From Candidatus Zhuqueibacterota bacterium (GTDB lineage Bacteria > Zhuqueibacterota > Zhuqueibacteria > Oceanimicrobiales > Oceanimicrobiaceae), in NCBI GenBank assembly GCA_029262035.1, contig JAJDAE010000146.1, forward strand, positions 1-42,461: DNA of 42,461 nucleotides, in the 5' to 3' direction. The notes beneath the pieces are model-generated. The model did no database searches. It was not told where the DNA came from and was given only the letters and a program-made list of their open reading frames with translations. Shown here piece by piece: positions 8,567 to 22,578 of the stretch. A program made the position numbers and the translations under genes. How positions within the stretch are numbered: the stretch's first letter is position 1; each line of letters starts with the position of its first letter.

Positions 8567-10000
8567 TTATTTTAAATTTATCCAGTCACTCTCTTCCCGG
8601 TGCATCAGTTTGATCTTAACTCCGTACTTTTCTGCCAGGTATTTGCTGAGGCTGTTGGCGCAAAAAACCGATCGATGCTGACCGCCGGTGCAACCAAATG
8701 CTACCGAAAGGTGCGTGAAACTGCGCTGCTCATATTTCTCGATAACCTGTGAAATGAGGTCGCGAACCCGGGTGAGAAAACTGTGGACTTCCGGCTGGCC
8801 TTCCAGAAATTGAATCACTCCTTTATCATTGCCATTCTGTTTTTTGTACTTATCAAGCCGGCCAGGATTTGTTAGCGAGCGGCAATCGAAAATGAAGCCC
8901 CCGCCATGACCGGTTTCATCTACCGGCAATCCGTTTTTATAAGAGAAGCTTTGAATGTGCACTGTCAATGGTAGCTGTACGTTTCCGATTTCCCGTAATT
9001 TTGTAGAACGTACTATTTTTTGCAGACATGAAAGCAGCATGGGCATTTCAACCGGCAATGAGACGTTGTGGAGCACATACTCAAGGTTGCGAATTGCAAA
9101 GGGCACACTTTGTAAAAAGTGCGTTTTGCGCTCATAAAATCCGCGAAAACCGTATGCGCCCATGGCTTGCATAATGCGCACGAGTGTATACCCGTAGTAA
9201 TATTTCATAAATTCATCACGATCGATCTTAGTGAGCTTGCTTAACTTGTTGAGATAAGCCTGGAGTAATTTTTCCCGAACTTCAAAAGGCAGGTTGGCTT
9301 TTGCATCGAACAGCAGCGAAGCGATATCGTATTGCAGGGCACCTTTGCGACCACCCTGGTAGTCAATAAAATATGGTCTCCCGGCGCGTATCATGATATT
9401 TCTTGATTGGAAATCGCGATAAAGAAAAAAGTCGTGGCGGGTTTCGAGTAAAAAATCGGCAAAGCGGTTGTAATCATCCTCTAATTTTTGCTCGTTGAAG
9501 GAGATTCCCGCGAGCTTCAAAAAGTAATATTTGAAATAACTCAGATCCCACATAATCGACTGACGGTCAAAACTGTGGCGCGGATAACAGAATTTATAAT
9601 TTAATTTTTTACCGCCCTTAATTTGAAATTCAGGCAGCATTTCTACAACGCGGGTATACAAGTGTTCTAATTCAGAAGGGAATTCATTTTTATTTGGCCG
9701 CAGCTTTTCCATCAATTCAAACAGTGTGTCATTACCCAAATCTTCTTCCAGGTAAATATTGGCATCGAGATTTTCGGCATAGATTTCAGGTACGGGCAGA
9801 CCGAGTTTTCCAAAATGTTTGGAGAATTCCAGAAAGGCGATATTCTCTGCACGGTCATCGTTTTCAACACCAATAGCAGTATGTTTTTTACTTTTTAAGC
9901 GATAGCGTTTGCGGTTGGAACCGTGTGCCTTCAACGGTTTAAAGCTATCCACTGCTTCGCTAAAATGTTTTTCAAATAGGGTTTTTAGATTTGAATTCAT
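8567..10000 (-). CDS. AmgK-like sugar kinase fused to a RapZ C-terminal domain
   Basis: Two domains are visible in 477 residues. Residues 20-310 form an aminoglycoside-phosphotransferase-like kinase of the COG3178 group, which includes the MurNAc/GlcNAc anomeric kinase AmgK. Its catalytic loop is YRDFQSRNIM (D196, N201) and its metal-binding aspartate is D213 in FIDYQGG. Residues 345-475 match the C-terminal domain of RapZ, with GHGGGFIFDCRSLTNPGR and GCTGGQHRSV (436-445). In E. coli that domain binds glucosamine-6-phosphate and GlmZ/GlmY small RNAs. The N-terminal P-loop ATPase of RapZ is absent. The fusion suggests an amino-sugar kinase for cell-wall recycling that senses amino-sugar phosphate; that link is inference. 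The gene stands alone, and the nucleotidyltransferase MurU, a frequent AmgK partner, is not adjacent. Confidence 0.85.
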   Translation of the reverse strand: MNSNLKTLFEKHFSEAVDSFKPLKAHGSNRKRYRLKSKKHTAIGVENDDRAENIAFLEFSKHFGKLGLPVPEIYAENLDANIYLEEDLGNDTLFELMEKLRPNKNEFPSELEHLYTRVVEMLPEFQIKGGKKLNYKFCYPRHSFDRQSIMWDLSYFKYYFLKLAGISFNEQKLEDDYNRFADFLLETRHDFFLYRDFQSRNIMIRAGRPYFIDYQGGRKGALQYDIASLLFDAKANLPFEVREKLLQAYLNKLSKLTKIDRDEFMKYYYGYTLVRIMQAMGAYGFRGFYERKTHFLQSVPFAIRNLEYVLHNVSLPVEMPMLLSCLQKIVRSTKLREIGNVQLPLTVHIQSFSYKNGLPVDETGHGGGFIFDCRSLTNPGRLDKYKKQNGNDKGVIQFLEGQPEVHSFLTRVRDLISQVIEKYEQRSFTHLSVAFGCTGGQHRSVFCANSLSKYLAEKYGVKIKLMHREESDWINLK

Positions 10001-12633: not shown

Positions 12634-14154
12634 ATGGTTTTGGTGATGACAAATAAAATAAGTCATAAAATCATTTTTGGTGTGGCTCTGGTCTCCATTA
12701 CAGTTATTGGTATTTTTTCTTTACAGACCAGTCGTTCTGTCCGTACGGCCTTAATGACACAAATTGACGATACCGCAAATCAGCTCAGCGAAACTATCAA
12801 GAGCAGCACAAAATACGATATGCTGCTGAATCAGCGAAAACACATCCATCGAATTATCGATACTATCAGTAGGCAGGAAGGCATCGAAAAAATCCGAATT
12901 TTTAATAAGGAAGGTGTCGTCAACTATTCTTCCGATAAGACTGAAATTGGCAAAATGGTTGATAAAAAAGCTGAATCGTGTTATGCCTGCCATGCCGCCA
13001 ATCAGCCTATCGAAAAGCTCCCAATAAACGAGCGTACACGTACATTTGTTAACGAAGCTGATCATGAAAATTTTGGGATTATCAACCCAATTTACAATGA
13101 GCCCGGCTGCTGGCAGGCGGACTGCCACGCCCATGCCGAAGCACGAAAAGTACTCGGTGTACTTGATGTCACTCTTTCCCTGGAAGAGGTGGAAGCTCAA
13201 ATTCAGACCACGCAAAATAATCTTATCATTCTGGCCTGCAGCGCTGTGGTGGCCATTAGTTTTATTATATGGCTGCTTATGAAAAATCTGGTGGGTAAGC
13301 CGGTTGGAAACCTGGTGTTGGCAACCAATAAAATCGCAGGCGGAGATTTGAATTATAAAATCAAATTGAAGCAAAACGATGAATTGGGACAGTTGGGGAA
13401 ATCATTCAACGATATGACCGAAAAATTGACTAAGGCGCAACAACAACTTTATCAATCCGAAAAATTGGCTTCTTTGGGGCGCCTGGCTGCTGGAGTGGCG
13501 CACGAAATCAATAATCCGCTTACCGGTGTTTTGACCTACGCCAGCTTTCTGCAAAAACGCATTCAGGAGCCTGAAACCAAATCCGATCTGGATGTAATTG
13601 TTCGCGAAACCAAACGTTGCCGCGAAATTGTAAAAGGACTGTTGGATTTCGCACGGCAGGCGCCCCCCCAAAAATCCAATATCAATTTGAATGATGTAAT
13701 TCATCACAGTTTACATATTTTGGATAATCAGTTGTGCCTCAAAAACATCAACGTTAAAACCGGGCTGGCAAAGCTGCCAAATATAAATGTAGATTCAAAT
13801 CAAATCCAACAAGTTATAATCAACCTTCTGGTTAACGCTTCAGACGCTATTGGCAACGGTGGTGGGGAGATTAAAGTTGAAACTAAAACTGAACGCAACG
13901 ATACTGGAGAATCTCTTGTAATGTCGGTTAGTGACACCGGATGCGGTATGTCTAAGGAACAGCAATCCAAGATTTTCGAACCCTTTTTTACAACAAAAGG
14001 GCAAAAGGGCACCGGGCTTGGTCTGGCAGTAGTTTGGGGAATTATTGACAAACATCATGGTAAAATGGATGTAAAAAGTGAACCGGGTAAAGGTACCAGG
14101 TTTACCGTCACCTTGCCTGTAAATGAGAATGCATCTCTAATCGTTGAGAAATAA
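12634..14154 (+). CDS. Membrane histidine kinase with c-type heme motifs in its periplasmic sensor
   Basis: The 506-residue protein has a membrane helix at 13-30, a periplasmic sensor at about 31-193, a second helix at 194-214, a HAMP domain at 215-268 and a kinase core. The phosphoacceptor is H290 (AGVAHEINNPLTG), the N-box centres on N401 (NLLVNASDAI), and the ATP lid glycines are in DTGCGM and GTGLGLAVV. The sensor contains CYACH (116-120), a canonical CxxCH heme c motif, and CWQADCH (159-165), a CX4CH variant. The following RKVLGVLDVTLSL is seen in related sensor domains. It should therefore sense redox state, oxygen, NO or a similar ligand through covalent heme. ATG at 12646 is an alternative start. 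It is the first gene of a five-gene operon and ends 2 bp before its receiver partner. Heme attachment is inferred from motifs. Confidence 0.9.
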   Translation: MVLVMTNKISHKIIFGVALVSITVIGIFSLQTSRSVRTALMTQIDDTANQLSETIKSSTKYDMLLNQRKHIHRIIDTISRQEGIEKIRIFNKEGVVNYSSDKTEIGKMVDKKAESCYACHAANQPIEKLPINERTRTFVNEADHENFGIINPIYNEPGCWQADCHAHAEARKVLGVLDVTLSLEEVEAQIQTTQNNLIILACSAVVAISFIIWLLMKNLVGKPVGNLVLATNKIAGGDLNYKIKLKQNDELGQLGKSFNDMTEKLTKAQQQLYQSEKLASLGRLAAGVAHEINNPLTGVLTYASFLQKRIQEPETKSDLDVIVRETKRCREIVKGLLDFARQAPPQKSNINLNDVIHHSLHILDNQLCLKNINVKTGLAKLPNINVDSNQIQQVIINLLVNASDAIGNGGGEIKVETKTERNDTGESLVMSVSDTGCGMSKEQQSKIFEPFFTTKGQKGTGLGLAVVWGIIDKHHGKMDVKSEPGKGTRFTVTLPVNENASLIVEK

Positions 14155-14156
14155 TC

Positions 14157-14906
14157 ATGAGCCAAACAGATATTTTGTTGGTTGAAGACGAAGAGGTCAT
14201 TATTTCTGCATTTAAAAGATTTTTGAAAGAAGAACGGATTAAGCTTGATGCCGTGACCGATGCCGAGGAAGCGGTTCACCGGTTAGAAAAAAAATCATAC
14301 AAAATTGTGATTTCAGATTTAATGCTGCCAAATTTTTCCGGGCTTGATCTCTTAAAGGTTGTCTCCTCCAAAATGTCAAAAACCCCGTTTGTTGTGATAA
14401 GTGGCTATGCCACACTGAGTAATGCAATTAAATCCTTTAAACTGGGGGCCTTTGATTTTATACCAAAGCCATTTGATATCGATGAAATTTTAGGGGTGGT
14501 TTATCGCGCGCTGGCTTTTTCAGGGAAAACGACTAAACATCATATAAATAATGATGGCAACAAGGCATTTCATTTTCTCGGTTGCCATAGTTGGGCTAAA
14601 AAAGAATCTGCCGGTACTGTTATTTTGGGCTTAGGAGAGACATTCTCCTCAATAAGAGAACGAATCGTTGAAATGGAATTTGAGCCCGTAAACTCAGAAG
14701 TCACCCAGGGTAATGTCTTTCTTAAAATTGAAAGCAAGCATGAGCGCTTGCATAATGTTCGGGCGCCGTTTAGTGGGACAATTATTGAAATCAACAAAAA
14801 TTTTTATGAAAAGCCGTCAGCTTTAGCAAAAAGCAATCTCAGTGAGAATTGGTTGGTCAGAATGAAGCCGGAATTTTATGAAGGTGAAGTTCTGAATTTA
14901 TCATAA
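14157..14906 (+). CDS. Response regulator: receiver domain fused to a GcvH-like domain
   Basis: Residues 1-122 are a CheY-like receiver with acidic pocket E10/D11, phosphoacceptor D54 (VISDLMLP), and K104 in IPKPF. Residues 138-238 match glycine cleavage H protein: HSWAKKESAGTVILGLG, then VRAPFSGTIIEIN and NWLVRMKP. There is no DNA-binding or enzymatic output domain. In GcvH the lipoyl-lysine lies in ES-V-K-A, eight residues before the proline of the next turn. Here the segment reads IESKHERLHNVRAPFSG; it has one extra residue and its lysine is one position early, so normal lipoylation is doubtful. The gene follows the heme kinase by 2 bp and surely takes phosphate from it. The GcvH-like domain may act as a protein-docking or protein-carrier module controlling the redox complex encoded downstream; that is inference. 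Confidence 0.88.
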   Translation: MSQTDILLVEDEEVIISAFKRFLKEERIKLDAVTDAEEAVHRLEKKSYKIVISDLMLPNFSGLDLLKVVSSKMSKTPFVVISGYATLSNAIKSFKLGAFDFIPKPFDIDEILGVVYRALAFSGKTTKHHINNDGNKAFHFLGCHSWAKKESAGTVILGLGETFSSIRERIVEMEFEPVNSEVTQGNVFLKIESKHERLHNVRAPFSGTIIEINKNFYEKPSALAKSNLSENWLVRMKPEFYEGEVLNLS

Positions 14907-14964
14907 AACGCAAACGGTCAGTTTGCATGCTTATCACTATCTTTAAAAAATGAGGAGTATTGAA

Positions 14965-16134
14965 ATGGTTGCTCTGTTGGTAATTTTCATGATTGCTGCT
15001 TTTATCACCGCAGATGTTTTGGTTCGGGTGATCTCGAAGAAAATGCAGGAATCAAAGCTGCATAAGGAACGCGCAGTAGCCTTGGATGTTGGTTTAAATC
15101 TCAGCTTTGCAGACGAAACCAAGTCGTTAAAGCGGGTTATGGTTGAGAGCCCGAAAGCCAGAATTCTTGCGGTAGACGATGAGTCGATTATTCTGGATAG
15201 TTTTAGAAAAATTTTGGTGCTGGCAGGTTATTCTGTGGATACGGTTGAGAAAGGGCAGGAAGCCCTTACTTTGGTAAAAAAGAATGAATATGATTTTGTT
15301 TTTACAGATTTAAAAATGCCTGAAATGGACGGAATTGATGTAACGAAGAGCGTGAAACATTTGCGTCCGGATATTGATGTGATTGTGATCACGGGTTTTG
15401 CAACTCTTGAGTCCGCAGTTGAGACCATGAAGTTTGGTGCGTTGGATTATGTTCAGAAGCCTTTTACAGAAGATGAATTGGTTGATTTTGTCAACAAGTC
15501 ATTGATTCGCCGCCAGGATAAAATTGAGCGGCAGCGTCTTCCTAAAATTCGTCTGGTCACTTCGCCGAAGGCCGAGCTTGAAGCGAAAGATGCATTCAAT
15601 GTGTCGGCTGGTCTTTTTGTTTCGGAAGAGCACATCTGGGTTGGCGTGGAAATGGATGGCACAGTGCGTATTGGGCTGGATGATTTTGTGCAGAAAATTG
15701 TGGGCAAAATTGATCGCATCAGCGTGCCGAAAATAGGCAAAATGCTTACTCGTGGACAGGCGCTTTTGACCATTCATCAAAATGGCCGCGAATTGGTTTT
15801 CCCGTCTCCGGTTACTGGGAAAATCAGCGCAATAAATGATGAACTGGGTGGGCATATAGAAATTATGCGCATTAAACCATACGAATTGGGATGGTGCTGC
15901 TTTATCGAAGCAACCAGCCTAATCAGTGATTTGAACCATCTCCGAATTGGTAAAGATGCGTTAGACTGGTACCGCAAAGAAAGTGAAAAATTCAGAAAAA
16001 TAATTGCCACCGATGAAAGTAAGAAAGCTGAGCGTAAAACTGAAGATCGCAAAAGCGATACAAAAGATGAGAGCTTGCACAATCTCAGTAATTCAGAGTG
16101 GGAAGCTTTTTCAAAATCTTTTCTACATGCATAA
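14965..16134 (+). CDS. Membrane-anchored receiver-GcvH-like protein
   Basis: The 389-residue product starts with one membrane helix (2-23), then has a receiver domain (about 64-183) with D71/D72, phosphoacceptor D115 (VFTDLKMPEMDG) and K165 in VQKPF. A GcvH-like domain follows at about 215-320 (EEHIWVGVEMDGTVRIGLDDF, 21 residues in the source split as EEHIWVGVEMDG and TVRIGLDDF). The aligned lipoyl-lysine position in LTIHQNGRELVFPSPVTG is glycine G274, so lipoylation is clearly lost. A charged Lys/Glu-rich tail ends the protein. ATG at 14965 is chosen over 14950 because GAGGAG at 14952-14957 lies seven bases upstream of it, inside the longer reading. It is a paralogue of the preceding gene but tethered to the membrane, where the ferredoxin and quinone proteins encoded next would sit. 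No output enzyme domain is seen. Confidence 0.88.
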   Translation: MVALLVIFMIAAFITADVLVRVISKKMQESKLHKERAVALDVGLNLSFADETKSLKRVMVESPKARILAVDDESIILDSFRKILVLAGYSVDTVEKGQEALTLVKKNEYDFVFTDLKMPEMDGIDVTKSVKHLRPDIDVIVITGFATLESAVETMKFGALDYVQKPFTEDELVDFVNKSLIRRQDKIERQRLPKIRLVTSPKAELEAKDAFNVSAGLFVSEEHIWVGVEMDGTVRIGLDDFVQKIVGKIDRISVPKIGKMLTRGQALLTIHQNGRELVFPSPVTGKISAINDELGGHIEIMRIKPYELGWCCFIEATSLISDLNHLRIGKDALDWYRKESEKFRKIIATDESKKAERKTEDRKSDTKDESLHNLSNSEWEAFSKSFLHA

Positions 16135-16149: not shown

Positions 16150-16923
16150 ATGAGTTACGGAATTTTGACTGATTTGACCAGGTGCATCGGTTGCAAGGCT
16201 TGCGTCATGGCTTGTAAGGAAATTAACGGGCTTCCTAAAACCGAGGTACTTAAGTTAGATGGAAATAATTGGACTGCTGTTGAACAGGTAAACGGCGTAA
16301 ATATTAGGCGGCAGTGCATGCATTGCGATGACCCAACCTGCGTTTCTGTTTGCCCGGTCGCGGCGCTGCAAAAGACTGAAGCCGGGCCTGTGATTTATCT
16401 TGAAGAGCGCTGTATGGGGTGCCGTTACTGCGTGATGGCCTGCCCGTTCGAAATCCCAAAATACCAATGGAATGAAACTCTGCCACGTGTACAAAAATGC
16501 ATTATGTGCTACGACAATCTGGTTTCCAAAGGCGAGCAACCGGCGTGTACATCGGTGTGTCCAACCGGCGCTACAATTTTTGGCGACCGCGAGGAGCTGA
16601 TGGACGTTGCCAGGGAACGGTTTAAAAATAACCCCGGCCTTTATGTTGATCATATTTATGGTGAGCATGAAGCCGGCGGTACATCTGTGATTTATCTTTC
16701 CGATGTACCGTTTGAACAATTGGGTTTCAAGGTTATGAAATCCGATGCTGCCTATCCTAAGCTTACATGGGATGTTTTATCGCAAATCCCCAATATTGTC
16801 AGCGTTGGCGGCGTTACAATGTTCGGCATCTGGTGGATAATTAATCGGCGCGTTAAGCTGGAAAAAGTCCGAAATGGTGAGATGACAGAGGAAGAAGCCT
16901 TTGGCATCGCGAAGGACGAATAA
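16150..16923 (+). CDS. Four-cluster ferredoxin subunit, HybA/DmsB type
   Basis: Sixteen cysteines in four groups bind four [4Fe-4S] clusters: C12/15/18/22, C56/59/64/68, C88/91/94/98 and C117/120/133/137. This is the DmsB/PsrB/HybA family. A single membrane helix near residues 216-235 ([16 protein letters not shown]) and a short charged tail are as in HybA. HybA normally carries a Tat signal; here the protein begins [15 protein letters not shown] with no signal, and a TGA just upstream rules out an N-terminal extension. GGGGTG at 16140-16145 serves as ribosome binding site. It would pass electrons between the quinone protein encoded next and an unidentified partner. No hydrogenase or molybdopterin subunit is adjacent, so substrate and orientation in the membrane are open. 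Confidence 0.92.
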
Positions 16924-16947: not shown

Positions 16948-18519
16948 ATGAAAATTAAATTAACTTTTTGGAAAATTGTGGCCGCCATTATTTTTGTGCT
17001 CGGCCTTTATGCTACAGTGATACGGTTTGCCGTAGGACTCGGTGCTGCGACAAGTCTCACAGATACGTTTCCATGGGGTATTTGGATTGGATTTGATGTA
17101 CTCGTGGGCGTTGGTCTCGCTGCCGGTGGTTTTGTTATCGCGGCAACAGTACATATTTTTAATCTTGAGAAATATAAACCCATCGCCCGCCCTGCCATCC
17201 TTACGGCATTTCTCGGCTATCTTTTGGTGGTGATCGCCATTTTGTTTGACTTGGGCCTGCCATTCAGAATCTGGCATCCGCTGATCATGTGGAATCCGCA
17301 TTCCGTGATGTTTGAAGTTGGCTGGTGCGTGACGTTGTATACAATTGTGCTCGCTCTGGAATTCAGCCCGATGGTTTTCGAGCGCTTCAACATGAAGGTG
17401 CCATTAAAGCTCATACGTACAATTTATCTGCCCATTGTCATTGTGGGCGTGCTGCTTTCCACACTGCATCAGTCCTCGCTGGGCACATTATATGTAATCG
17501 TACCGGACAAATTGTATGGACTTTGGTATTCGCCATTTTTACCGGTGTTCTTTTTTATTATGGCTATCGCCGCCGGCCTGGCAATGACCATTATTGAATC
17601 ATTTTTGAGTTACCGGGCATTTGGCAAACGTCTTGAAAAAGATTTGCTTGAAGGCCTCGGCAGAGTGATCGTTGTGGTTCTGGCAATATACCTTGTTTTT
17701 AAAATACAAGATTTGAACAGTCGCGGTAATTTGGAGCTTGTCTTCCGGTTTAGCCGGGAGAGTGTGCTTTTCTGGGGTGAAATCGGACTCGGTGTAATTT
17801 TACCTATGGTTTTACTTTTTGTTGAACGCATTCGGGTTAAGGAAACCTGGCTTTTCTTTTCGGCGCTTATGGTCGTGATTGGATTTGTGGTCGGCAGGCT
17901 GAATGTAAGTATTACCGGCATGTTGCACTCAGAAACTTATTTTCCCAAATGGACAGAATTGATCATAACCGTGGCTTTGATTGCGCTTGGCTTTGTGATT
18001 TTCAGCCTTGCCGTCAAACATCTCAATGTCTTTCCAAAAGAGGAAAACGAATCTGCCGGAAGTGAAGTTGTGCCCCATGCTCAAAAGCCGGTTTTTACCG
18101 GCAATCTGGTCATGGTAATCTGGACATTCCTTCTGATTGGCATGATCGCGTTTGGATTAACGAAACAGTATAGTCATGCTGAAGCAGGTACGGAAATGAG
18201 CGGTGGCGTTACCCGGTTAGCCGATCCGTCTGATGCCGAGGTTACGCTTCCGGATGATATCGAATACACCGGTGATTCTGATCCGGATGATTGGCCAGGT
18301 GATGTAATTTTTAGCCACGAAAGCCACGTTTACGCTCAGGACTCTGTTTCCTGCGCAAATTGTCATCTTGAGGATTTTAAAATTATCAGGGAGAAAATCG
18401 ACAGGGAAATTATGCTCATGGATGCCATGTATGAGGGCAAATCCTGCGGTTCTTGTCATGACGGGGAAAAAGCATTTAGCTCAGAAGAATGTGAAATGTG
18501 CCATATACCGGCACCATGA
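16948..18519 (+). CDS. HybB/NrfD-like quinone membrane subunit fused to triheme cytochrome c7
   Basis: Residues 1-410 form a polytopic domain of about ten helices. It matches HybB: PWGIWIGFDVLVGVGLAAGG, LTAFLGYLLVV, DLGLPFRIWHP, HSVMFEVGWCVTLY and LEFSPMVFER. HybB/NrfD-like proteins exchange electrons with menaquinone. After the last helix, residues 440-523 form a small cytochrome with three CxxCH sites (C469-H473, C500-H504, C515-H519) and extra histidines in FSHESHVY. The pattern GKSCGSCHDGEKAF is typical of triheme cytochrome c7. This tail should be periplasmic. The fusion couples the quinone site directly to a heme wire and is longer than stand-alone HybB (about 390 residues). It is the last gene of the operon, 24 bp after the ferredoxin. 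Electron direction is unknown. Confidence 0.9.
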   Translation: MKIKLTFWKIVAAIIFVLGLYATVIRFAVGLGAATSLTDTFPWGIWIGFDVLVGVGLAAGGFVIAATVHIFNLEKYKPIARPAILTAFLGYLLVVIAILFDLGLPFRIWHPLIMWNPHSVMFEVGWCVTLYTIVLALEFSPMVFERFNMKVPLKLIRTIYLPIVIVGVLLSTLHQSSLGTLYVIVPDKLYGLWYSPFLPVFFFIMAIAAGLAMTIIESFLSYRAFGKRLEKDLLEGLGRVIVVVLAIYLVFKIQDLNSRGNLELVFRFSRESVLFWGEIGLGVILPMVLLFVERIRVKETWLFFSALMVVIGFVVGRLNVSITGMLHSETYFPKWTELIITVALIALGFVIFSLAVKHLNVFPKEENESAGSEVVPHAQKPVFTGNLVMVIWTFLLIGMIAFGLTKQYSHAEAGTEMSGGVTRLADPSDAEVTLPDDIEYTGDSDPDDWPGDVIFSHESHVYAQDSVSCANCHLEDFKIIREKIDREIMLMDAMYEGKSCGSCHDGEKAFSSEECEMCHIPAP

Positions 18520-19550: not shown

Positions 19551-20657
19551 ATGAATTATTTTATTACAATCATCAGTATTTTGGGAGGCGCGCAAGGTTT
19601 GTTCCTAACTTTTTCCTTGTTGGCGCTGAAAAAACACCAACTACAGGCGAACAGATTTTTGGCGGCTACAATTTTTGTTTTGTCGCTGACGTTGGTAATT
19701 GCCTTTCTTCATTTCTCCCGACTTGTTTTACATCTGCCTCATGTTTATAACATCACCCCGTTGTTTACTTTGATGTATGGTCCGTTGCTGTTATTCTATG
19801 TGAAAGGCATTTTGCAGCCGAATTGGCAGCCTAAAATCTGGCGGAGTCTTCACTTCATTCCTGTGATTGTTTTTATCTATATGCTTTGGCCAAGATTGAA
19901 CATGAGTGGTGAAACCAAGGCAATGTATTTGATGAATATTTTTGAGGATAGATATTTACCCGCATTTAATATGCTTGCAATGGTGCGAATCGGGCACCTG
20001 GCCATATATCTTATTCTTGGCTTTCTCGTTTACCGGACTGCCCGTATGCGTAGGGAATCGAGTAACAATGGTATGCTAACAACTCGACTGGCTTGGGTCG
20101 TGCGTATTCTGTCGGGTTCGGTAATTATCTGGGGCATTTATACTTTCTTATATTTTTATAATCAGTATTGGTTAAATATTGCCGCACCTATTTTGATAAC
20201 AATCGCGCTTTATAGTGTTGGCTTTTATGCCATCAGGTTTCCGGAATTATTCCGGGACGTGCAGCTTAAAAGCGCCAGTGCAAAATATGAGTATTCGAAA
20301 TTGAGCAATGAAGAGAAATCCCGTATCAAAGACTTATTGATCGAAATCCTTCAAAAGGACAAGCTGTTTAATAACCAGGATCTGAAACTGCAGCTCCTGG
20401 CGCAACGATTGGATGTTTCAGCACAAAGCCTGTCGCAAATTATAAATGAAGAATTTAAACAAAATTTTTCGGAATTGATCAATAGTTACAGAATTGAAGA
20501 GGCGAAGAAGCTTCTGTTAAATGAAACCCATAAACATTTTACCATTGTTGCAATCGCTAACGATGTTGGTTTTAGTTCCAAGTCTGCATTTAATGCCGCT
20601 TTCAAAAGAATTACCAACCAAACTCCTTCCGAATTCATAAAAGCAAATGGTAATTAA
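19551..20657 (+). CDS. AraC-family regulator with multi-helix membrane sensor
   Basis: Residues 1-230 contain about seven hydrophobic helices. The C-terminal 100 residues are an AraC-type double helix-turn-helix: QDLKLQLLAQRLDVSAQSLS as the first half, then INSYRIEEAKKLLL and VGFSSKSAFNAAFKRITNQT as the second. Such membrane AraC proteins are common in Bacteroidota-like genomes, and their signals are mostly unknown. The gene stands 126 bp upstream of the cytochrome-YceI pair on the same strand, so it is a plausible regulator of them. No Shine-Dalgarno is obvious; the start is chosen because the first membrane helix begins directly at MNYFITII. The 261 bp before it shows no gene. Confidence 0.88.
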   Translation: MNYFITIISILGGAQGLFLTFSLLALKKHQLQANRFLAATIFVLSLTLVIAFLHFSRLVLHLPHVYNITPLFTLMYGPLLLFYVKGILQPNWQPKIWRSLHFIPVIVFIYMLWPRLNMSGETKAMYLMNIFEDRYLPAFNMLAMVRIGHLAIYLILGFLVYRTARMRRESSNNGMLTTRLAWVVRILSGSVIIWGIYTFLYFYNQYWLNIAAPILITIALYSVGFYAIRFPELFRDVQLKSASAKYEYSKLSNEEKSRIKDLLIEILQKDKLFNNQDLKLQLLAQRLDVSAQSLSQIINEEFKQNFSELINSYRIEEAKKLLLNETHKHFTIVAIANDVGFSSKSAFNAAFKRITNQTPSEFIKANGN

Positions 20658-20783
20658 TTTGTACGGAAAGATATTTCCGCACGCCTTCTTTGCATCCGCC
20701 GACCTTTTTTGACTGTATATTCGTGCATAAACTGCAACAAGTTTGCGGATAACAATCATAACATTAGTAAGGGAGGTTGCTCA

Positions 20784-21572
20784 ATGCTAACCCAAAAATC
20801 AATCAAAGCTCCTAATTCATTGTTGTTGGCAATGGTTATTGCGATTACATTGCTTTCCGTTTTTTCTTCCGTTTATGCACAGTCACCCTGGCCGGAGAAA
20901 ATGAAAAATCCTAAAGTCTTGTCAAAGTCCACCACCACCAATGAACTGCGGGCGACAATGCGTGGGTTCTCGAGAGCGCTGGGTGTAAACTGTGTGCATT
21001 GCCACGTGGCGGAAAATCGCCGTGATTTCTCGACCTACGATTTTGCATCCGATGCTAATCAAAACAAAGTTAGCGCCCGTACGATGATGCGAATGGTAGG
21101 TGAGATAAATGAAAAGCAACTGACCAAACTTGCAGATCATCAAACAAGCTCTCTGTCGGTGAATTGTATGACTTGTCACCAGGGGAAAGAAAAACCGACT
21201 ACGCTTGAACAAGAATTGAATGCCGTAATTGAAACAGATGGTGTTGCTGCCGCAATTGAAAAATATCGGGAATTGCGAACTAATTACTACGGTGGAAGTA
21301 GTTACAATTTTAGTGAAAATACGCTTAACGGACTTGGTTATCAATTGTTGGGAAAGGAGCAATTTGATGATGCCATCGCGATTTTTAAACTGAATGTGGA
21401 AATGAATCCGGCATCAGGAAATCCTTATGACAGTCTTGCTGATGGTTACATGCAGGCGGGGAAGAATTGGCTGGCTTTCATAAATTATAGCAAATCGCTC
21501 GAATTGAATCCGAGAAACAAAAATGCTGAAAAAATGCTGAATAAATTAAAAGGAGTCTTGAATAGTGAATAA
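20784..21572 (+). CDS. Periplasmic diheme cytochrome c with TPR tail
   Basis: The 262-residue protein has a signal peptide ending near VYAQ (residue 33). The cytochrome domain carries CVHCH (70-74) and CMTCH (128-132), with LGVNCVHCHV, FASDANQNKVSARTMMRM and CMTCHQGKEKPT. This is the pattern of the cytochrome subunit of photosynthetic reaction centres (CytoC_RC-like), here a two-heme non-photosynthetic form. The last 80 residues hold TPR-like helices (NPYDSLADGYMQAGKNWLAF). ATG at 20784 is selected because GGGAGG at 20771-20776 fits it and because upstream TTG at 20709 gives no signal peptide. Its end overlaps the YceI gene start by 8 bp, implying coupled translation. Its electron partners are unknown. 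Confidence 0.88.
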   Translation: MLTQKSIKAPNSLLLAMVIAITLLSVFSSVYAQSPWPEKMKNPKVLSKSTTTNELRATMRGFSRALGVNCVHCHVAENRRDFSTYDFASDANQNKVSARTMMRMVGEINEKQLTKLADHQTSSLSVNCMTCHQGKEKPTTLEQELNAVIETDGVAAAIEKYRELRTNYYGGSSYNFSENTLNGLGYQLLGKEQFDDAIAIFKLNVEMNPASGNPYDSLADGYMQAGKNWLAFINYSKSLELNPRNKNAEKMLNKLKGVLNSE

Positions 21573-22578
21573 TTCAAAGAAAGTCACGTGGATCTTGCTT
21601 ACCACCTTATTTCTGGGTGTCCTGGTTTTACCGAGCTCTGCACTCGACCGCAATTTTTCAATGTCTAAAATCTACTCTATCGATTCAGGGCATTCGTACA
21701 TTGGTTTTCAGATAAAATACATGGGGTACGCAAAGGTGCGTGGACGCTTTGAAAATTTCTCCGGGTCAATTTACTATGACCCGGATGACATCACCAAAAC
21801 CTCTGCAACCGTGATCATTAAAACAGAAAGTATTGATACAGACCTGAAGTGGCGGGACAAAGATCTGAAATCTGCAAATTGGTTTGACGCAGAAAAACAC
21901 CCTTCGATAGTTTTTAAAACAACGCGGGTTGAGCAAAAAGCGGGGCAATCCATATTCTACGGCGAGCTAACCATGCGTGGAGTAACCAAAGAAGTAGCTC
22001 TTGAAATGCATGAAAATTCCGGTATTCTGAGCGATACACGCGGAGACAGTCAAGTCATTTTGACCGGCAGGACAGTCGTCAACCGAAATGATTTTGGCAT
22101 CAAAGGTGAGCGGTGGAGCAAAATCAAGGAGGGCATTGCTTCGGTAGCGGCTGAAGTTGAAATTGAACTAACGGTGCTTGGTAAACAAGTCAAGGAACGC
22201 AACTTTCGCAACTGGGTTAGAAATGAAAATAAGCCGCCTGGACGCATCTATAAAATAATAAGTGAGTCTGGCGTAGAATCAGGCCTGTCTGAATTCGCCA
22301 AAATGAAAAGTGATACCACAAAAAAAATAAAATCGAACGCCTTAAACATTGCGGGTTATATGCTGCTAAAGGAAGGCCGAACTGATGATGCAATTGTTGT
22401 CTTCGAACACAATGCCGCCAGTTTTCCTAATGACGTCAGCCTTTTTGAATCATTGGCAGAGGCTTACGCCACAGCAGGTGATTTCCCCAAGGCTGCGGCT
22501 AATTGTCGCAAAGTGCTTGAATTTGATCCCGATAACGGCAATGTTCTGGAGATTTTACGCCATATTGATGGTTTGTAA
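21565..22578 (+). CDS. YceI-family periplasmic protein with TPR tail
   Basis: The 337-residue protein has a signal peptide ending near SSALD, then a YceI domain at about 36-195 (IDSGHSYIGFQIKYMGYAKV, GELTMRGVTKEVAL, LTGRTVVNRNDFGI). YceI proteins are lipocalin-like barrels that bind polyisoprenoids or quinone-like lipids. Residues 265-335 carry a TPR tail (LFESLAEAYATAGDFPKAAA) like that of the preceding cytochrome. The start is GTG at 21565 with GGAG at 21551-21554, and it overlaps the cytochrome gene by 8 bp. The pairing of a cytochrome with a possible isoprenoid- or quinone-binding protein suggests a shared periplasmic redox task; this is inference. Confidence 0.88.
   Translation: MNNSKKVTWILLTTLFLGVLVLPSSALDRNFSMSKIYSIDSGHSYIGFQIKYMGYAKVRGRFENFSGSIYYDPDDITKTSATVIIKTESIDTDLKWRDKDLKSANWFDAEKHPSIVFKTTRVEQKAGQSIFYGELTMRGVTKEVALEMHENSGILSDTRGDSQVILTGRTVVNRNDFGIKGERWSKIKEGIASVAAEVEIELTVLGKQVKERNFRNWVRNENKPPGRIYKIISESGVESGLSEFAKMKSDTTKKIKSNALNIAGYMLLKEGRTDDAIVVFEHNAASFPNDVSLFESLAEAYATAGDFPKAAANCRKVLEFDPDNGNVLEILRHIDGL

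Follow-up and report, generated by a model that had tools for sequence, protein, structure and literature searches.

Two adjacent response regulators encoded in the window (the whole stretch of 42,461 nucleotides analysed here) carry a domain with the fold of the glycine cleavage H-protein GcvH that has lost the lipoyl-lysine, and this loss extends over a family of related domains in which the core of the fold is conserved. With about as much confidence as doubt, we read the two proteins, hereafter RR1 and RR2, as non-lipoylated GcvH adaptors or accessory subunits of an Hmc/Hyb-like oxidoreductase, controlled through phosphorylation of their receivers by a heme kinase. Their genes belong to a module borne by one strand in the order kinase, RR1, RR2, Fe-S protein and NrfD-c7 protein, with gaps of 2, 43, 15 and 24 bases, RR1 starting 2 bases past the kinase stop. 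The features of the module, in window positions, are the following:

12634..14154, + strand: sensor histidine kinase with a periplasmic cache-like sensor, two c-heme motifs, HAMP, HisKA and HATPase_c (Pfam)
12979-12993, + strand: kinase c-heme motif CYACH, of the CXXCH form (sequence)
13108-13128, + strand: kinase c-heme motif CWQADCH, of the CX4CH form (sequence)
14157..14906, + strand: RR1, soluble receiver-GcvH protein of 249 aa (ORF, Pfam, alignment, AlphaFold model)
14172..14495, + strand: RR1 receiver domain with phospho-acceptor Asp54 (Pfam, residues 6-113)
14565..14876, + strand: RR1 GcvH-fold domain, residues 137-240 (Pfam, fold match)
14727..14759, + strand: RR1 hairpin IESKHERLHNV, with His195 in the lysine column, Lys194 one place early and the class-conserved His199
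14950..16134, + strand: RR2, membrane-tethered receiver-GcvH protein of 394 aa (ORF, Pfam, alignment, model)
14965..15030, + strand: predicted N-terminal transmembrane helix of RR2, residues 6-27 (sequence)
15163..15492, + strand: RR2 receiver domain with phospho-acceptor Asp120 (Pfam, residues 72-181)
15601..15933, + strand: RR2 GcvH-fold domain, residues 218-328 (Pfam, fold match)
15766..15801, + strand: RR2 hairpin LTIHQNGRELVF, with Gly279 in the lipoyl-lysine column
15889..15900, + strand: RR2 GWCC, containing Cys317 (family alignment)
16096..16125, + strand: conserved C-terminal helix of RR2, EWEAFSKSFL, with F391 invariant in the alignment (alignment, model)
16150..16923, + strand: HmcB/HybA-like 4Fe-4S protein (NCBIfam NF045715, 5.5e-73, below its cut-off)
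16948..18519, + strand: HmcC/HybB-like NrfD membrane subunit with a fused triheme c7 domain (NCBIfam NF045714, 8.6e-93, below its cut-off; nanowire_3heme, 6.8e-19, above its cut-off)

Further 3' of the module, positions 19551-22578 encode an AraC-type regulator with membrane helices, a CytoC_RC-like CXXCH protein and a YceI-TPR protein, and on the opposite strand positions 8567-10000 encode an APH-like kinase domain fused to a RapZ C-terminal domain.

Both proteins match the receiver family REC (PF00072; 1e-24 for RR1 and 2e-29 for RR2) and, above the curated cut-off, the family GCV_H (PF01597; 1.9e-14 and 5.1e-15, respectively). GcvH structures are the best PDB sequence matches for the C-terminal parts of both. 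The fold was compared by means of fold scores and DSSP on AlphaFold models: GcvH structures are among the top Foldseek matches of the two models, with target-normalised TM scores of about 0.75-0.85, and against the solved GcvH 3a8j_E the target TM scores are 0.78 (RR1) and 0.84 (RR2). The RR1 model has a pLDDT of 87.2 and a pTM of 0.85; that of RR2 is moderate (mean pLDDT 71.7, pTM 0.45, with 83-89 for the hairpin blocks) and was used for the hairpin and the fold only. These Pfam, PDB sequence and fold matches rule out a chance or spurious GcvH domain. One transmembrane helix is predicted in RR2 and none in RR1, and the basic residues C-terminal to the RR2 helix would, by the positive-inside rule, place its REC and GcvH domains in the cytoplasm. 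The initial annotation had described a clear GcvH-like domain in both receiver proteins, one of them soluble and the other tethered to the membrane, and had proposed structure prediction as a check; models and domain searches agree with it.

The receivers display the acidic pair, phospho-acceptor Asp, Ser/Thr and Lys expected of response regulators, D11, E12, D54 and K104 being invariant in an alignment of RR1 with 10 relatives and D76, D77, D120, T148 and K170 in one of RR2 with 16 relatives. No DNA-binding domain was found by Pfam in RR1 or RR2. With an unimpaired set of catalytic residues in the receivers and a kinase encoded next door, docking controlled by phosphorylation fits the pair.

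The hairpin that bears the lipoyl-lysine in functional H-proteins, E-[AS]-V-K, is found in neither protein. In RR2, alignment and model agree in placing Gly279 in the lysine column, within a tight two-residue turn (Asn278-Gly279) that joins the modelled strands 271-277 and 280-285, and the hairpin contains no lysine. The turn of RR1 is one residue longer than that of GcvH (Lys194-His-Glu-Arg197, between strands 187-193 and 198-202); the profile alignment puts His195 in the column and leaves Lys194 one place early. The glycine of the second protein, and the inserted residue and early lysine of the first, are thus as originally reported from the sequence. The same annotation had considered that a lysine at the tip of the hairpin would speak against loss of the site: Lys194 does lie at the tip in RR1, but it is displaced and not conserved among RR1 relatives, most of which have Asp or Glu in the column, and RR2 has none. 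In a lipoyl domain of B. stearothermophilus, a relative of GcvH rather than GcvH itself, moving the lysine one place early (D41K/K42A) yielded a domain that was not lipoylated, according to the summary of that work (Wallis and Perham 1994) given in PMC6270654. Because that domain remained unlipoylated and Lys194 is unconserved, Lys194 would not rescue lipoylation, and as an unconserved residue displaced by one position it was rejected as a true lipoylation site.

Incapacity of the organism to lipoylate was likewise ruled out as the cause of the lysine loss by a canonical GcvH with EAVK encoded elsewhere in the genome and by two BPL_LplA_LipB proteins, a family that also covers biotin ligases. 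The gene of this canonical GcvH comes after one for a biotin carboxylase (L159:5275-7029, G000:C165), and neither of the two neighbours checked belongs to glycine cleavage.

The scale of the loss was assessed on 106 distinct loci, gathered from sixty relatives and one scan of named genomes (80 of its 183 confirmed loci were kept). They include members from KSB1, Ignavibacteria, Bacteroidota, Calditrichota, Cloacimonadota, Spirochaetota, Gemmatimonadota, Acidobacteria, Betaproteobacteria and other Pseudomonadota, Kiritimatiellota and Desulfobacterota, the named records being mostly metagenome bins, so that an isolated odd placement may reflect faulty binning. Four classes were distinguished: RR1-type (REC-GcvH), RR2-type (TM-REC-GcvH), stand-alone TM-GcvH (H) and Cys-type (cysH). 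Lysine occupies the column in 10 of 185 family domains (RR2-type 7/66, H 2/50, RR1-type 1/36, cysH 0/33) as against 38/38 reference domains, canonical GcvH and lysine-bearing LbpA-like proteins, a figure partly obtained by construction as the LbpA-like references were chosen by their E-[AS]-x-K motif. The GcvH core is retained (in RR2 numbering, W230 and P287 in 66/66 and N296 in 65/66 RR2-type domains). Recent decay of a true GcvH was ruled out, the lysine being absent family-wide while the core is conserved. Comparison of the lysine column across all such proteins, another of the checks initially proposed, strongly supports at the family level the claim that the cofactor site was lost and the fold kept.

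Each class has a hairpin of its own, [K/R]-Q-G-x-[R/K/H] in RR2-type and [R/K]-Q-G-x-[R/K] in stand-alone H domains, where few positions of the turn vary as much as the one that used to hold the lysine, and Asp/Glu (28/36) plus His (30/36) in RR1-type domains. The acidic residue at -3 is replaced in the RR2-type, mostly by basic residues, and this class has invariants of its own (D244, D245 and K249, 66/66); its Cys317, in a GW-x-C motif, is present in 63/66 domains and is not a common residue in the other GcvH classes. On the sequence evidence, the RR1-type, RR2-type and stand-alone hairpins are remodelled rather than decayed. The lysine-less Cys-type, usually encoded directly 3' of NrfD, has an N-terminal C-x-W...C...C-x-x-C motif that is possibly a metal or Fe-S site; examples are L113:10643-11467, L039:8471-9247 and L153:6102-6914, the last of which has no Pfam match and was detected only by the family profile. 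In a tree of the domains built without the hairpin columns, RR1-type domains form a single clade (SH-aLRT 93) and RR2-type domains are interleaved with stand-alone H; only these two results are used, the tree resting on few columns and having poorly resolved deep forks. Since RR1 is one clade and the RR2-type is mixed with H, the simplest account is that two separate GcvH lineages each acquired a REC domain.

One alternative keeps the carrier function: a special ligase would acylate or lipoylate Lys194 of RR1 or the column lysine of some RR2 relatives, or a different group would be bound by Cys317 and other residues. The column lysine of 7/66 RR2 relatives and the near-constant Cys317 would suit it, and LbpA shows that a GcvH relative can depend on ligases of its own (PMC6067878). 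We nevertheless regard it as highly improbable, given that most relatives have no lysine, that the -3 position of the RR2-type has changed, that both BPL_LplA_LipB genes lie on other contigs and that the displaced lysine of the lipoyl domain was, in the summary cited above, left unmodified.

Neither glycine-cleavage genes, which would have supported an H-protein, nor lipoate-ligase genes were found near the window copy. A conserved module emerges instead, composed of a two-c-heme kinase, between one and three GcvH proteins devoid of the lysine, and a pair made up of an HmcB/HybA-like Fe-S protein and an HmcC/HybB-like NrfD protein. Of the 65 loci flanked on either side by 4 kb or more, 53 have the Fe-S plus NrfD genes and 59 the heme-type kinase. 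Stand-alone H immediately precedes the Fe-S gene 29 times, and cysH immediately follows NrfD 21 times. Among the 60 relative genomes, 32 have both NrfD and an RR2-type or H domain (one of them, G043, by virtue of a partial domain that proved to be RR1-type, L156), 5 have NrfD only, none has the domain only and 23 have neither (Fisher p 4e-12, from a hand tally counting genomes as independent despite shared ancestry). Two of the NrfD-only exceptions are L153, with a Cys-type copy beside NrfD, and L154, with an Fe-S/NrfD pair and no GcvH-like gene near. One genus (L037, L041, L045) has RR1 but neither NrfD nor RR2, and its kinases are devoid of heme motifs, which ties the parts of the module together. 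The initial suggestion of a new, non-lipoyl role is supported by the class-specific hairpins, the absence of glycine-cleavage and lipoate-ligase neighbours and this tight coupling to the Fe-S/NrfD complex.

In Bacteroidota, Ignavibacteria and relatives from the window's own class, a receiver-free TM-GcvH occupies the equivalent place in the module, and in other lineages this form is accompanied by separate NtrC-type regulators. As the domain thus occurs without REC, its tie to the complex is independent of the receiver. The presence of receiver-free forms in that place would also suit GcvH domains with a constitutive role in the structure or assembly of the Fe-S/NrfD complex as subunits of it, the receivers serving only for dimerisation or as buffer or phosphatase partners, with no phospho-control. 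We think this unlikely, since the catalytic residues of the receivers are fully conserved in both RR classes and the fusion of REC in two different GcvH classes suggests that phosphorylation matters. An archaemetzincin-like M54 metallopeptidase is encoded beside the NtrC-type regulator in Bacteroidota and Ignavibacteria modules (L053:5923-6468 and 29 other loci).

RR1 is encoded directly 3' of the heme-type kinase in 30/34 cases and directly 5' of RR2 in 30. This adjacency, the frequency of NtrC-type regulators in the module and the absence of a DNA-binding domain from both proteins could be taken to mean that RR1 and RR2 tune transcription as members of a phosphorelay or as phosphate sinks, their GcvH domain docking the kinase or a sigma-54 regulator rather than a respiratory complex; the Desulfobacterota Cys-type copies, which follow a kinase-NtrC pair without NrfD, would agree with it. 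This explanation seems improbable to us, as no NtrC-type gene adjoins the window module and the neighbour of stand-alone copies is the Fe-S gene rather than the kinase. About a fifth of the loci are without nearby Fe-S/NrfD genes, and Desulfobacterota Cys-type copies adjoin other redox genes; the family therefore does not belong exclusively to a single complex. Loci of this Desulfobacterota type (L145, L147, L148, L149 and L152) comprise a kinase, an NtrC-type regulator, an M54-family protein and a Cys-type GcvH, without NrfD.

If the GcvH domains are adaptors of the oxidoreductase, the position of the Fe-S protein restricts where they could bind. This protein exists in two forms (L033-L109), a Tat signal being absent in the window, where the C-terminal segment is hydrophobic, and in several relatives, and present in many others. 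Several of the Tat-less forms occur together with an NrfD that bears a fused triheme domain. Because Tat-bearing forms would be periplasmic, the Fe-S protein cannot simply be the contact surface in all lineages; where it carries the signal, a GcvH domain located in the cytoplasm would be left with NrfD loops, or some other partner on that side, to contact. The cytoplasmic loops of NrfD are a candidate surface.

Under the adaptor reading, the GcvH-fold domain would act on the cytoplasmic side as an adaptor or accessory subunit of an Fe-S/NrfD membrane oxidoreductase through which electrons pass between the quinone pool and cytochromes of the periplasm. In the window lineage it would have been joined to receivers twice, giving the soluble RR1 and the tethered RR2. 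The kinase, with its two periplasmic c-hemes, would sense redox state or a heme ligand and phosphorylate the receivers, changing how the GcvH domains engage the complex. Of this account, the fold, the loss of the lysine, the class-specific hairpins, the intact residues of receivers and kinase, the gene module and the co-occurrence across genomes were observed, whereas direct contact of the domain with the complex, phosphotransfer and control of its activity are inferred. A further idea, put forward tentatively and with more doubt than confidence, is that the output of this two-component system could be the activity of a respiratory quinol/cytochrome oxidoreductase rather than transcription: the diheme kinase would phosphorylate the paired receivers, one soluble and one tethered, whose non-lipoylated GcvH domains would clamp onto the complex or release it. 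Such direct control, if true, could allow bacteria to tune their electron flow with no need to express further genes, and it is open to experiment in a relative available in culture, Stygiobacter electus (L104). More broadly, a classic cofactor-carrier fold has here lost its cofactor and been put to new use in signalling and respiration in about ten bacterial phyla, and the annotation as glycine cleavage H-protein that many such genes would receive by default from PF01597 appears to be misleading.

Several known systems share parts of this module. With the H-protein (PF01597), RR1 and RR2 have in common the fold and the core residues (His/Trp, Gly, Pro-x-x-Gly, Asn, Trp), but their lipoyl-lysine is gone, their hairpin altered and their domain joined to a receiver or a membrane helix. 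Among GcvH relatives in redox metabolism, the closest precedent is LbpA, likewise recruited by a redox enzyme system, the sHdr sulfur-oxidation system; its lipoyl-lysine is strictly conserved and it is served by dedicated ligases (PMC6067878), whereas RR1 and RR2 have lost the lysine and have neither linked sHdr genes nor a ligase nearby. The kinase resembles the sCache_heme (DUF3365/Tll0287) and GSU0582/GSU0935 sensors in its cache-like periplasmic sensor with CXXCH, and differs from them by having two motifs, CXXCH plus CX4CH, both retained in 82/85 related kinases; Geobacter GSU0599 also has two CX2-4CH motifs (PMC8396549). Its Pfam cache matches (sCache_3_2, sCache_4, Mcp40H-20) are weak and below cut-off, and the DUF3365/Tll0287 profile gave no match at E up to 1. 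Redox or NO sensing has been proposed for c-heme cache-like sensors (PMC12889525, PMC8396549). The Fe-S and NrfD pair is akin to those of Hmc (HmcB/HmcC) and Hyb (HybA/HybB), its strongest NCBIfam matches, with scores under the cut-offs (245.7 of 420 and 311.6 of 550 bits for HmcB and HmcC, 213.1 of 263 and 287.6 of 450 bits for HybA and HybB); unlike Hmc and Hyb, the window module has a triheme domain fused to its NrfD and includes a heme kinase as well as partner genes with GcvH domains. No account of a REC-GcvH output or a lysine-less GcvH family was found in the open-access literature searched; the family is apparently without earlier description, although papers beyond this search may mention it. 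The parts, GcvH fold, receiver, Hmc/Hyb-like pair and heme sensor, are of already known kinds. With other response regulators without a DNA-binding domain, RR1 and RR2 share a receiver with an intact phosphorylation site joined to another output domain, and they differ from them in that this output is a degenerate GcvH domain.
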